Assembly: GCF_015461805.1 (NCBI RefSeq)
Contig: NZ_JACVZE010000013.1
Location: 1 to 64,000 of the forward strand
DNA from: Pseudomonas pisciculturae
Lineage (GTDB): Bacteria > Pseudomonadota > Gammaproteobacteria > Pseudomonadales > Pseudomonadaceae
Direction: 5' to 3'
Length of the DNA: 64,000 bases
Shown here: positions 46,054-49,400 of the stretch, one piece after another
How positions within the stretch are numbered: the stretch's first letter is position 1
Layout: every line of letters starts with the position of its first letter
Translations under genes and position numbers: made by a program
Notes under the pieces: generated by a model
Seen by the model: only the letters and a program-made list of their open reading frames with translations
Told to the model about the DNA's origin: nothing
Database searches by the model: none

Positions 46054-46353
46054 TTACACCCCACCCTCTTCAGCAACCCCATTCGGCAACATCCCCTTCG
46101 CCAAATCATCCACCACCGCCTTGGCCATCTCCCCCAAATAATGCGCGGCCCAGGCATAGCGGTCGGCGTTCTTGTCCATCGCTGCATCCATTGCCAACAG
46201 TTTTGAACAGTGGAGAAGCTCAGAGGCATGCTCCAGCGCATCGCGGATGGGCACGCCGGAGTTGACGCGGAATAGGTGGTGCAGCGCGGGCTGAGTGCCG
46301 CAGGTGGAGAAGGTGATGACGCCGAGGGTTTTGTTTGGGGGTGGGTTGATCAT
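46054..46353 (-). CDS. DUF3077/DUF6124-like small protein
   Basis: 99 residues from ATG 46353, with GGAGGT 6 nt upstream. Helical, with VNSGVPIRDALEHASELLHCSK and YAWAAHYLGEMAKAVVDDL, the form I associate with DUF3077/DUF6124 proteins of pseudomonads (function unknown). The ATG overlaps the stop of a 24-codon upstream ORF (ATGA), and both follow an apparently structured leader. Confidence 0.8.
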   Translation of the reverse strand: MINPPPNKTLGVITFSTCGTQPALHHLFRVNSGVPIRDALEHASELLHCSKLLAMDAAMDKNADRYAWAAHYLGEMAKAVVDDLAKGMLPNGVAEEGGV

Positions 46354-46424
46354 TGGGCACCTCCGGCGAGAGTGGTGACACGGCTTTCGATACTGCAAGG
46401 GTACAACCAGACAGAAACACTCAT
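46350..46424 (-). CDS. 24-codon upstream ORF coupled to the DUF6124-like gene
   Basis: ATG at 46422-46424 has AGGAGT 7 nt upstream, so it should be translated. It encodes MSVSVWLYPCSI... ending LAGGAQ. Its stop TGA overlaps the next ATG, and its last codons contain the GGAGGT site of the downstream gene. That geometry suits translational coupling or a leader peptide. No function known to me. Confidence 0.55.
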   Translation of the reverse strand: MSVSVWLYPCSIESRVTTLAGGAQ

Positions 46425-46848
46425 GGGCCTAACTCCTAATGTAGAGAAGAGCCGCCACGTTCGTTTCCAGGCGAATGGGTGGCAGCTATGCGCAGGCTGG
46501 AAAACCGGGACAATAGGAACCCGGCAGACCCGAAGGTCTCCCGCGCACAGCCGCCATAACACGGATATGCTGGCACAAAAACACCAGACATCGTGATAAA
46601 TAGTGGCACCTGTGCGCTATTGTTCCACGGGTTTCCAGGCCCGGTCGCTGGGTTGCGGCGACTCGAAGAAATTAGCCTCAAGGTGACGAAATCTAAATCT
46701 CAAAATTGTGTCTACGCATTTCGAACAGCCACAATATCTACTATGATTCGCCAGAGCATGGAGACTCCTAATACAGGCACAATGATTTTCAACTCGACAG
46801 TCACCAACGTCAATCACAACTTAAAAACTTTTGCGAGTCTCAATCGAC
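46354..46848. other. Gap holding the uORF and leader, no other gene seen
   Basis: Apart from the uORF (46350-46424) and hairpin leader (46451-46539), the part from 46590 rises sharply in A+T and should contain the promoters of the leftward leader and of the rightward channel gene. Short open frames here (for example on + from 46593) have no ribosome site or recognisable product. Confidence 0.5.
46451..46539 (-). ncRNA. Structured 5' leader with three hairpins
   Basis: Read leftward: hairpin 1 AGACC-TTCG-GGTCT (46526-46539, UUCG tetraloop); hairpin 2 CCGGG-N10-CCCGG (46505-46524); hairpin 3 GCTGCCAC/GTGGCGGC (one G-U pair) with inner TTCG-N8-CGAA (46451-46486). Then a 13-nt linker, AGGAGT, the 24-codon uORF and the DUF6124-like gene. 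A cis-acting regulatory RNA is the natural reading; class unknown. Confidence 0.5.
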
Positions 46849-47679
46849 ATGGCCGAACTACCAAGAATCAAAGAGCCAATAACTAACAGGCAGCACATTC
46901 TTAACGTAGGCACATACGAAATACGAGCCCACCACAAAATAAAACTTTGCTTCATCGATACCCCCCAACAAGGCGAACCCACCCCTTTCCACAGAGTGAA
47001 AAATGTTACTTTCGAGAAATGCATATTTTCAGGGCAAACTATAAAAAACATTAACTTTTACGGATGCACATTTATAGACTGCATATTTAACGGAGTCACC
47101 ATCGACTCTTGCGAATTCCACAAATGCTTAATAAAAAATTCGTGCTTTTACAAACCGACTTTTTCCAACACCTACATCGACCCAAAATCATTCAAATTCA
47201 ACTATAAGTGGTACAGACATTATGCAAATGTCAATGCCGGACTATTTCAGTCTCTATATAGAAATTCCAAGGACGTTCACCAAGAAAAATTTGCAATGCG
47301 CGCCGATATAGCTTTTTTATTCTACAGAAGATATGAATACCTCTTTGGTCTGAAAAGAAATATTGGCAAGTTTATAGCAGGCTTTCTTTTTGACATTTTA
47401 CTTGGGTGTGGGTACGGAATTATAAACGTACTATTTTTCACTTTGATATCGATAGCTGGTTTTGCCTGGCTAATAAAAGACTTTATATCTCCTTCAGAAA
47501 ATATGAACTTAGTCAAAGCGCTATATTTCGCTATAGTTTCCTTCACCACCGTGGGCTACGGAGATCTAGCTCCAAATAAAACTGACACAGCTCTTATCTT
47601 AACGATGATCTTCTTGCTATCCTCCGTAATATGGTGTGCTCTTGTGACCGCAATAATTGTTAAAAGGATAGTGAAATAG
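46849..47679 (+). CDS. Pentapeptide-repeat two-TM potassium-channel-like protein
   Basis: 276 residues from ATG 46849 (a TTG at 46831 is possible). Residues about 53-110 are imperfect pentapeptide repeats (TFEKCIFSGQ, FYGCTFIDCIFNG). Residues 174-206 form TM1; a pore loop follows with the filter TTVGYGD (233-239); then TM2 (about 247-270) and a short basic end. No RCK or ligand domain at the C-terminus. Markedly AT-rich with codon use unlike the neighbours, so likely acquired. Overlaps the next gene's GTG by one base. I infer a membrane effector or ion channel gated through its soluble N-terminus. Confidence 0.85.
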   Translation: MAELPRIKEPITNRQHILNVGTYEIRAHHKIKLCFIDTPQQGEPTPFHRVKNVTFEKCIFSGQTIKNINFYGCTFIDCIFNGVTIDSCEFHKCLIKNSCFYKPTFSNTYIDPKSFKFNYKWYRHYANVNAGLFQSLYRNSKDVHQEKFAMRADIAFLFYRRYEYLFGLKRNIGKFIAGFLFDILLGCGYGIINVLFFTLISIAGFAWLIKDFISPSENMNLVKALYFAIVSFTTVGYGDLAPNKTDTALILTMIFLLSSVIWCALVTAIIVKRIVK

Positions 47680-48506
47680 TGAGCTTTGTATTAATTGAGT
47701 GCGGTTCATCTGCACGAGGGGACTTCAACCCAGAAAGCGATAGGGACATTGTGTGCATTTGGAACGATCCAAAGCCAGACTTTGTGATGTTAAGAAAAGA
47801 GTTTGGAGAGATAGTCTTCTACTCAGAGCAAAATATAAAAAAAATGAAAGACAAAGGTTCCCTTTTCATTGCACATCTTGGTGTGGATGGAAAATACATC
47901 CTAGGGGAACGAACTTTGATGACGATGCTAAGAGGCTTCAAGCCAAACAACAACTCAATACAGAAAAACATTTTAGAAACTGAGACCTTCATTAGAAATA
48001 TTGAATGGTTCCCAGATTCAAACAAAGGACTACTATGGCTATCGGACGTCTTATACGTCTCACTAAGAAATTATATTTTCTGCAAGAACGCGCTAAAAAC
48101 AAAATACATTTTTGGCTACGAGAGTGCATTGAAAGCATTCGGTCTTGCACAAGACGAAATAAAACTTATGCTACAGTTGCGAAATGGTAAGTATGCATAC
48201 AGAAAGGGAGCGAAAGACTCAATAACAAACCTCACTAAAGAAACCGCCGAAATCGCATGTGCAAAAATACTAAAAACACAAATACTTTTTCGAGAAGGCG
48301 GCATTACAAATTGGGAATCCATGAACAAAAAAAGTTACTGGACAGAGAGACTGGTAGAGCGAGCCATACTTAATAAAGAACACTTTGACTGCGAATTTAT
48401 CGAAAACCTTAAATCCCACCAATACAACAAATACGCCATAAAGAAAAAAACTATCAAAATAATCGAATCACATACAAAAAGCCAAACAATAAAAAAAGAC
48501 GATTAA
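47679..48506 (+). CDS. MNT-type nucleotidyltransferase
   Basis: 275 residues from a GTG that shares its first base with the channel stop. Pol-beta-type signature GSSARGDFNPESDRD: G9-S10, ten residues, D21-x-D23, so the catalytic pair is intact. The N-terminus before GS is unusually short (8 residues). Residues about 85-275 are helical and Lys-rich, reminiscent of KNTase-C/HEPN-like partners. AT-rich like the channel gene. Could nucleotidylate a protein or make a nucleotide signal; substrate unknown. Tight overlap argues that it works with the channel. Confidence 0.8.
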   Translation: MSFVLIECGSSARGDFNPESDRDIVCIWNDPKPDFVMLRKEFGEIVFYSEQNIKKMKDKGSLFIAHLGVDGKYILGERTLMTMLRGFKPNNNSIQKNILETETFIRNIEWFPDSNKGLLWLSDVLYVSLRNYIFCKNALKTKYIFGYESALKAFGLAQDEIKLMLQLRNGKYAYRKGAKDSITNLTKETAEIACAKILKTQILFREGGITNWESMNKKSYWTERLVERAILNKEHFDCEFIENLKSHQYNKYAIKKKTIKIIESHTKSQTIKKDD

Positions 48507-48660: not shown

Positions 48661-48891
48661 CTACCGCCACTTCCCCAACCACCAGCAATACCAAACCACC
48701 CCACCAACCAACGCCCCTATAACCACCACCCCATTCCCCACCAACCAAAGCCCAAAATTCCGACTCTGCTCCGCATCCCCCTCATAAAACGGCCCGAAGC
48801 ACGCAGACACCGCCACCACCACCCCGTTAAACACTCCAACCGCCACGGCAACCACCAACACCACAAACAACACCCCCTTAACCACCTTCAT
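48661..48891 (-). CDS. Two-TM small protein coupled to tae4, candidate immunity protein
   Basis: 76 residues. ATG at 48891 overlaps the tae4 stop (ATGA), with GGAGG about 5 nt upstream; the longer start at 48909 is less likely. Two Val/Gly-rich hydrophobic helices (VVKGVLFVVLVVAVAVGVF and LVGNGVVVIGALVGGVVWYC) with a short polar loop. Known Tai4 immunity proteins are soluble periplasmic helical proteins, so if this is the immunity protein it is of a different kind. Confidence 0.65.
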   Translation of the reverse strand: MKVVKGVLFVVLVVAVAVGVFNGVVVAVSACFGPFYEGDAEQSRNFGLWLVGNGVVVIGALVGGVVWYCWWLGKWR

Positions 48892-49400
48892 ACCACCCTC
48901 CAAAACCAAATCTCCCTGGACTCGTGGTAATCCGAAAACGTCCCCTCAATCGAAAATCCCAGCTGAATACGCGGATAGCTCAGCCAATCCGTCAACCGCC
49001 GCCCATTCCACAGGTCGATATGGTCGCCGCTTCGATTACCAAACGTCTCGTTGCCCCGCCGCCAAAAGTCTTTGAAGAAGATGATCCCTTGCTGCCCAGC
49101 CAGCACATCGTCGAAGTCTTCGGGTTTGATTTTTTTCACAGGCTGTAATCCCGGAATATTGGCGCTGCTGAGCGCCTTGGCCATTTCCTCTGCGGCCAGT
49201 ACGTGCCCTTCGTTTTGGGGATGCTGCCAACAATAGCGCACCCCTCTTAACCTGCTCAGGTCTGCACCGGATCTGCGCAGGGCAACGCCGAGGTTAATGG
49301 CGCATTGATCGCTGAAATTCTTAGCGCCGTTAGTTCGGCATGGGGCGGCGTCGCCGAATATCTCGGGGTGGTTTTTCCAGAGAATGTTGAAGTTCAGCAT
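48888..49400 (-). CDS. tae4: Tae4-type peptidoglycan amidase effector
   Basis: 170 residues, the size of Tae4 effectors delivered by type VI secretion, which cut the gamma-D-glutamyl-DAP bond of peptidoglycan. Catalytic-type Cys33 (FSDQCAINLGVALRRSG), His127 (GDHIDLWNG) and an Asp at 129/138 are in the order expected for the NlpC/P60-like fold. N-terminus FNILWKNHPE is family-like. No signal peptide. No other type VI gene is in the window, so it is an orphan effector using a system elsewhere. Confidence 0.85.
   Translation of the reverse strand: MLNFNILWKNHPEIFGDAAPCRTNGAKNFSDQCAINLGVALRRSGADLSRLRGVRYCWQHPQNEGHVLAAEEMAKALSSANIPGLQPVKKIKPEDFDDVLAGQQGIIFFKDFWRRGNETFGNRSGDHIDLWNGRRLTDWLSYPRIQLGFSIEGTFSDYHESREIWFWRVV

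Follow-up and report, generated by a model that had tools for sequence, protein, structure and literature searches.

The locus described here raises the question of what controls a small gene whose start codon overlaps the stop codon of a short upstream open reading frame (uORF), and of what kind of RNA the structured leader ahead of both might be. The gene lies on the minus strand of the window, by which we mean the whole 64,000-nucleotide stretch of Pseudomonas pisciculturae DNA that was analyzed. The initial annotation had read the leader as a cis-regulatory RNA with three hairpins and had assigned it to no named class. We found that the minus strand at 46561..46475 encodes a complete C4 antisense RNA (Rfam RF01695, E 2.6e-15, model positions 1-87 of 87), which scores 85 bits, nearly twice the threshold of 45, and a named class therefore does exist for it. 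We estimate a probability of about 80% that the locus represents an antisense operon of the C4 type, comparable to c4-icd-ant of P1, in which DUF3077 replaces the antirepressor. The features of the unit, in the order of the leftward transcript, are:

46616..46675, minus strand: a1/b1 region, the predicted upstream C4 target, with a hairpin displaying a1 (RF03163 partial score, duplex energies)
46639..46632, minus strand: a1, CCUGGAAA, within the a1/b1 region
46626..46616, minus strand: b1, GGAACAAUAGC, within the a1/b1 region
46475..46561, minus strand: C4 antisense RNA, full length (RF01695, folding z, covariation in P1 and P2)
46556..46540 with 46496..46480, minus strand: P1, the 17-bp closing stem of C4
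46539..46526, minus strand: P2 of C4
46525..46504, minus strand: P3 of C4
46520..46509, minus strand: b' loop of C4
from 46503, minus strand: a' linker of C4
46462..46474, minus strand: predicted a2 target, CCUGGAAA, with UUCG/CGAA on its flanks (a'/a2 duplex, covaries with a')
46432..46443, minus strand: predicted b2 target, UACAUUAGGAGU, including the Shine-Dalgarno sequence of the uORF (b'/b2 duplex)
46350..46424, minus strand: 24-codon uORF, MSVSVWLYPCSIESRVTTLAGGAQ, whose stop overlaps the next start as ATGA (frame kept in aligned leaders)
46364..46359, minus strand: GGAGGU of the DUF3077 gene itself, inside the uORF
46054..46353, minus strand: DUF3077 gene, 99 aa (PF11275)

The sequence elements that the initial annotation had listed were all located on the minus strand, namely the hairpins AGACC-UUCG-GGUCU and CCGGG-N10-CCCGG, the complementary GCUGCCAC/GUGGCGGC with its inner UUCG/CGAA, the AGGAGU, the 24-codon ORF at 46424..46350, the ATGA overlap and the GGAGGU within the uORF. 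Their arrangement, however, proved to be different. The first two hairpins are real but are not free-standing, and form the P2 and P3 arms inside the 17-bp P1. Likewise, the span 46350-46539 that had been assigned to the element was too short, as P1 starts further upstream and the unit reaches to about 46675, at an a1/b1 target. The leader (46565..46420) was stable relative to shuffled sequences (z = -3.74, 1 of 200 shuffles equally stable), as was C4 alone at 46561..46475 (z = -5.66, 0 of 200). In an alignment of 27 leaders with C4, comprising 26 distinct sequences, 98.3% of cells were paired compared with 96.3% in shuffles, and 22 cells had changed on both sides compared with 6.2 in shuffles and 0 when the partner was slid; the aligned sequences are kin, so the comparison with shuffles gives no probability. 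The two-sided changes were confined to P1 and P2. P3 showed no covariation in the 26 distinct sequences, and two of its five pairs were broken in six of them, which may be misalignment. Compensatory change, by which the initial annotation had proposed to judge the stems, is therefore found in its first hairpin (P2) and in P1, and is absent from its second hairpin (P3) and from its third stem.

The third stem fared worse as a structure of the leader. It needs the 3' strand of P1 and is missing from the minimum-energy fold. Across the 26 distinct sequences its cells are 97.1% paired, no pair has changed on both sides, and three of the eight outer pairs are broken, in one to six sequences each. 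For lack of covariation we rejected it as a conserved structure. We also compared the C4 3' strand with downstream regions over 88 loci (four from the window's own genome and 42 from each of two relatives; the 36 of a third relative were left out). Pairing scored -11.9 with a locus's own downstream region, -9.7 with shuffled regions and -11.3 with the regions of other loci, and the own region beat the shuffled one in 65 of 88. Because the C4 3' strand pairs with other loci's downstream regions nearly as well, this complementarity is present but is not cognate.

To collect leaders, we scanned species genomes using the DUF3077 protein as query and obtained 35 loci, all in Pseudomonas. We aligned 30 leaders, consisting of the window and 29 of these loci, and excluded L069 and L071-L075 as partial or distant matches. 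C4 was present in 27 of the 30. The remaining three (L051, L053 and L070) have lost C4 and kept the uORF and the gene, and these units could be under the control of a C4 located elsewhere. All three retain an a1/b1-like stretch adjoining the uORF. The downstream flank linked all 27 loci that could be compared (L046, L049 and L059 end too soon), and the upstream flanks fell into one group of 12, one group of two and 16 singles, the window being a single. A variable site may have its boundary at the C4 unit.

In all 30 aligned leaders the uORF was in frame, 22-24 codons long and overlapping the DUF3077 gene as ATGA, two of them carrying in-frame deletions. Constraint on the peptide was weak. Among 28 distinct 24-codon uORFs the dN/dS-like ratio was 0.74, differences by codon position were 0.27, 0.26 and 0.31, and the uORF had no Pfam match. 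The sequence comparison suggests that the act of translation counts more than its peptide. The changes in P1 and P2 and the frame and overlap of the uORF thus support the earlier proposal that the leader is regulatory and its uORF coupled, although the element is best interpreted as an antisense RNA gene within the leader that acts on the leader's own ribosome-binding site, and not as a cis-acting sensor.

The gene downstream had been called DUF6124-like. The family is instead DUF3077 (PF11275, E 7.4e-33), and the DUF6124 score fell under the cut-off. The protein had no match to Bro-N, a domain of phage antirepressors, or to Ant. An AlphaFold model contained two long helices (mean pLDDT 62.8) and found nothing in the PDB better than E 1.7. 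The protein matched two PHROGs of unknown function; protein searches of phage records gave no match for three DUF3077 proteins and returned one plasmid. The passage of PMC9630843 that names DUF3077 mentions it as a mutated gene and nothing more.

Membership of the C4 family also concerns its targets. The a' and b' loops of the window's C4 are complementary to a1/b1 upstream and to a2/b2 downstream, and a2/b2 covers the ribosome-binding site of the uORF. Duplex energies were -12.6 kcal/mol for a'/a1, -6.1 for b'/b1 and -8.7 for a'/a2; the b'/b2 duplex, with nine pairs and one mismatch, was modest at -8.5. The model of the upstream target, RF03163 (c4-a1b1), gave 33.7 bits over 46675..46624 (E 1.4e-6), under its gathering score of 46.7, which was exceeded in 5 of 20 related loci. 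The core of a' occurs in three versions among the 27 aligned leaders with C4, and its complement (6 of 7 letters) was present at a1 in all 27 and at a2 in 26 of them, a count made with no permuted control. Such a control, with loops exchanged over all 88 loci, was applied to the larger set: the a' complement (6 of 7) was upstream in 87 of 88 (permuted mean 24, maximum 33) and downstream in 81 of 88 (mean 12.5, maximum 23). An ATG followed C4 by 40-80 nt in 83 of the 88, and in 78 of these 83 the b' duplex lay over positions -16..-5 of that start.

Upstream of a1, a GC-rich motif near CGCCAGAATCCGCCGGCTTGTGCG was seen in part of the copies of two genomes (G005 and G019) and in L004, and is perhaps a promoter or operator. 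A promoter scan gave two promoter-like sites in 2 kb compared with 2.2 expected by chance, and so lent support to no promoter. A weak TTTAGA-N17-TAATTT at 46697..46669, in which the -10 matches at 3 of 6 positions, was seen by eye and is absent from the scan output.

We then asked how each C4 pairs with its own targets relative to those of other copies in the same genome, using the loops alone. In the two relatives with 42 copies each, a2+b2 pairing averaged -20.9 kcal/mol with the own target versus -13.0 with other copies (z -18.0) in the first, and -21.9 versus -13.4 (z -19.9) in the second; for a1+b1 the z values were -13.0 and -12.0. The own a2+b2 target was the best of 42 for 27 and 32 C4s, respectively, and within the best three for 33 and 37. 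Viewed from the target, the own C4 was the best of 42 for just 23 and 18. For a1+b1, the own target was best for 15 C4s in each relative. An earlier run that had included stem letters of P3 gave blurred ranks; in each genome, b' paired best with its own target for 15 of 42 copies. In the window's own genome, its C4 fits its own a2+b2 best when both are summed. Its b' alone, however, fits the copy C14 better (-10.5) than its own b2 (-8.5), and the C4 of C14 fits the target of C20 better than its own. Because of these crossings, we conclude that the code is partly, not fully, orthogonal.

Less expected than the identity of the C4 is the scale of C4 units across the genus. We detected C4 in 36 of 57 genomes searched, namely in the window's own, in 31 of the 35 further genomes from the genus and in 4 of 21 from more distant organisms. 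Single genomes carried up to 42 matches, and in the two with 42, 39 and 41 were over the gathering score. The window's own genome has four copies, each followed by a gene of the DUF3077/DUF6124 type; one of the four genes is a DUF6124 match below the cut-off. Over four genomes we collected 124 C4 matches (five under the gathering score) and 121 DUF3077/DUF6124 genes (four only through sub-cut-off Pfam matches). With a limit of 900 nt, 102 of the 124 C4 matches had such a gene downstream on the same strand, at a median distance of 206 nt and a greatest distance of 249, and 102 of the 121 genes had a C4. Random placement in the three relatives gave a mean of 0.3 and a maximum of 3, compared with 98 of 120 observed. 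Seven of the 22 remaining C4 matches are in one genome (G010) and 15 are in two genomes whose sequence was inspected. Short Bro-N proteins lie downstream of four of these 15, of which one scored below the gathering score, and six further small proteins after C4 had no Pfam match over the cut-off. The Bro-N proteins follow C4 at L093, L152, L097 and L082, and that at L097 starts MIKVTPNPPE, as do many DUF6124 proteins. Among the papers listed by searches of open-licence literature, none had a title on a link between C4 and DUF3077/DUF6124, which may be in print elsewhere.

Units of this type were also found on viral contigs, where a protein search returned five DUF3077 and 32 DUF6124 loci and a search with a Bro-N protein returned none. 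We checked 19 of the 37 loci with Rfam, and C4 was near the DUF gene in all 19. In the three of five DUF3077 contigs that were checked (L155, L156 and L157), C4 precedes a uORF (24 or 31 codons) that overlaps DUF3077 as ATGA. Ogr and portal genes lie near the unit of L155; downstream of the unit in L156 are a repressor-like helix-turn-helix gene, encoded on the opposite strand, and Ogr; and a DUF6124 unit in L188 is flanked by a tail-fibre gene on one side and a tail-sheath gene on the other. Beside the window's C4 unit, at 46831..48506 (plus strand), is a pentapeptide-repeat, ion-channel-type gene overlapping a nucleotidyltransferase gene. A gene pair of similar layout precedes C4 in L155 (740..2508, plus strand), and the two nucleotidyltransferases gave no significant alignment, their sequences being remote. 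The pair is possibly defence cargo. A Tae4-type T6SS amidase effector gene is also near the window's unit (48888..49400, minus strand, PF14113, E 1.7e-22), and Pseudomonas sRNA P10 (RF01668) is near the DUF6124 units of two viral contigs (L161 807..878 and L179 2455..2526, both minus strand).

We propose that a single transcript would start upstream of 46675 and carry a1/b1, C4, a2/b2, the uORF and DUF3077. C4 is predicted, from the family match and the covariation, to fold into its P1/P2/P3 core, and RNase P would excise it as in P1. The b' loop would then pair with the ribosome-binding site of the uORF and a' with the adjacent a2, as their complementarity suggests, and the uORF would not be translated. 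The start of DUF3077, which would be reached through coupled re-initiation at ATGA, would stay off while the uORF is blocked. The upstream a1/b1 may bind C4 as a decoy or feedback site. Thus, by analogy with P1, C4 most likely blocks initiation at the uORF through b'/b2 and hence DUF3077. The protein would be expressed where C4 is lacking, outnumbered or sequestered, an example being the time just after the unit enters a cell without C4. DUF3077 may have an antirepressor-like effect.

A wider hypothesis, which we regard as possible but doubtful, is that the units across the genus form a self/non-self code. Each would be silent beside its own C4, and a small antirepressor-like effector would fire in a cell without that key; the units would spread on phages and chromosomal cassettes, and selection against cross-silencing would have driven the loops apart.

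The locus could instead be an IsrK-type switch, in which the leader would adopt an inactive fold, a short terminated a1/b1 RNA would bind it in trans and turn on uORF translation, and the third stem would be one alternative fold. The locus does share with isrK-orf45-anrP the succession of a leader RNA, a short ORF and a gene coupled to it. The isrK model (RF01394) also matched the window at 46662..46577, although at 27 bits (E 0.0012) this is below the threshold of 50; it exceeded the threshold in L072 and L030, where isrK and C4 matches occur in that order. Further, 18 of 27 leaders have a hairpin of -6 kcal/mol or lower before a T-run between a1/b1 and C4, counted with no shuffled control. 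In the window, however, the best such hairpin reached just -1.3 kcal/mol, which is no intrinsic terminator before the C4 part, its a1/b1 region folded no better than shuffles (z +0.61), and the third stem does not covary. Terminator-like hairpins occurred in 23 of the 88 loci versus 12 in one shuffle, and a general isrK-type terminator is thus unsupported there, though frequent in the window's orthologues. We consider this switch unlikely.

We find it quite improbable that the unit resembles a type I toxin-antitoxin system in which DUF3077 harms the cell and C4 is the RNA antitoxin. Small proteins do follow cognate antisense RNAs in many copies, some of them closely clustered, but C4 lies on the same strand in the same leader and not opposite its gene, a search of 900 nt upstream found no C4 match for 19 of the 121 DUF genes, C4 is missing from three of the 30 aligned leaders, and no toxin family was among the matches of the window protein. 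Similarly, the window's weak terminator and sub-threshold a1/b1, together with the loss of C4 from three leaders, could be taken as signs that the unit is a phage remnant in decay and no longer functions here; C4, the uORF frame, ATGA and the matching of a' with a1 and a2 are nevertheless kept across orthologues, and such decay is very unlikely. Finally, a cis-acting leader of an unnamed class, whose hairpins would respond to a ligand, temperature or a protein and so gate the uORF, without any antisense RNA being set free, would fit a stable structure ahead of an overlapping uORF but is highly improbable beside the full C4 family match and the loops, which differ from copy to copy and vary in step with the targets on either side, a pattern not expected of a sensor. 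An unnamed riboswitch-like leader was rejected because of the Rfam C4 match.

The preferred reading, a C4-type antisense operon, ties DUF3077 and DUF6124, two families of unknown function, to a well-studied phage regulatory RNA and provides a concrete handle on their possible role. Should the cognate matching prove functional, single bacterial genomes would contain about 40 antisense pairs that are partly orthogonal, offering a natural test bed for the divergence of RNA specificity between duplicated units and, possibly, a catalogue of translational switches for use as parts.

In P1, C4 has targets on both sides and icd and ant are coupled. As far as the published descriptions of P1/P7 immI c4-icd-ant extend, that operon and the window share a C4 with a' and b' loops, a b' lying over a ribosome-binding site, and a short leader ORF (icd) before the target gene. 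The section of PMC5320573 on C4 reports that in P1/P7 it is processed by RNase P to ~77 nt and acts in trans, and part of PMC8198154 treats P1 and its c4 operon. The window differs in having DUF3077 where P1 has the Ant antirepressor. Its uORF, 24 codons long and without a Pfam match, is likened to icd by layout, a leader ORF overlapping the target gene as read from the sequence in all 30 leaders. In addition, the Pseudomonas units are chromosomal, with up to dozens of copies in relatives.

The Gifsy-1 isrK-orf45-anrP operon, as outlined in the part of PMC4825925 devoted to it, resembles the window in its leader RNA, its overlapping or coupled short ORF and its target gene, and experiments on that operon have demonstrated that the short ORF and the gene after it are coupled. 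We infer that the STnc1160 part of that operon corresponds to C4. In the window, in contrast, the isrK match is sub-threshold, the terminator is weak and the target is no known antirepressor. The CI RNA of phage P4, with seqA/seqC, is likewise described in a portion of PMC4825925 as a processed antisense RNA that pairs with both its flanks, but it works by transcription termination, and the likeness is drawn from its description.

The closest precedent for copy number is the Group 1 sRNAs of Acinetobacter baumannii. The relevant section of PMC5320573 describes multicopy C4-like sRNAs, with many C4 copies per chromosome and a variable a', and notes that C4 had earlier been predicted in Pseudomonadales. 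That section states no protein-family link for the Acinetobacter copies, whereas here 102 of 124 precede DUF3077/DUF6124. An entry in PMC2864571 records c4 and c4-a1b1 in proteobacteria and phages.
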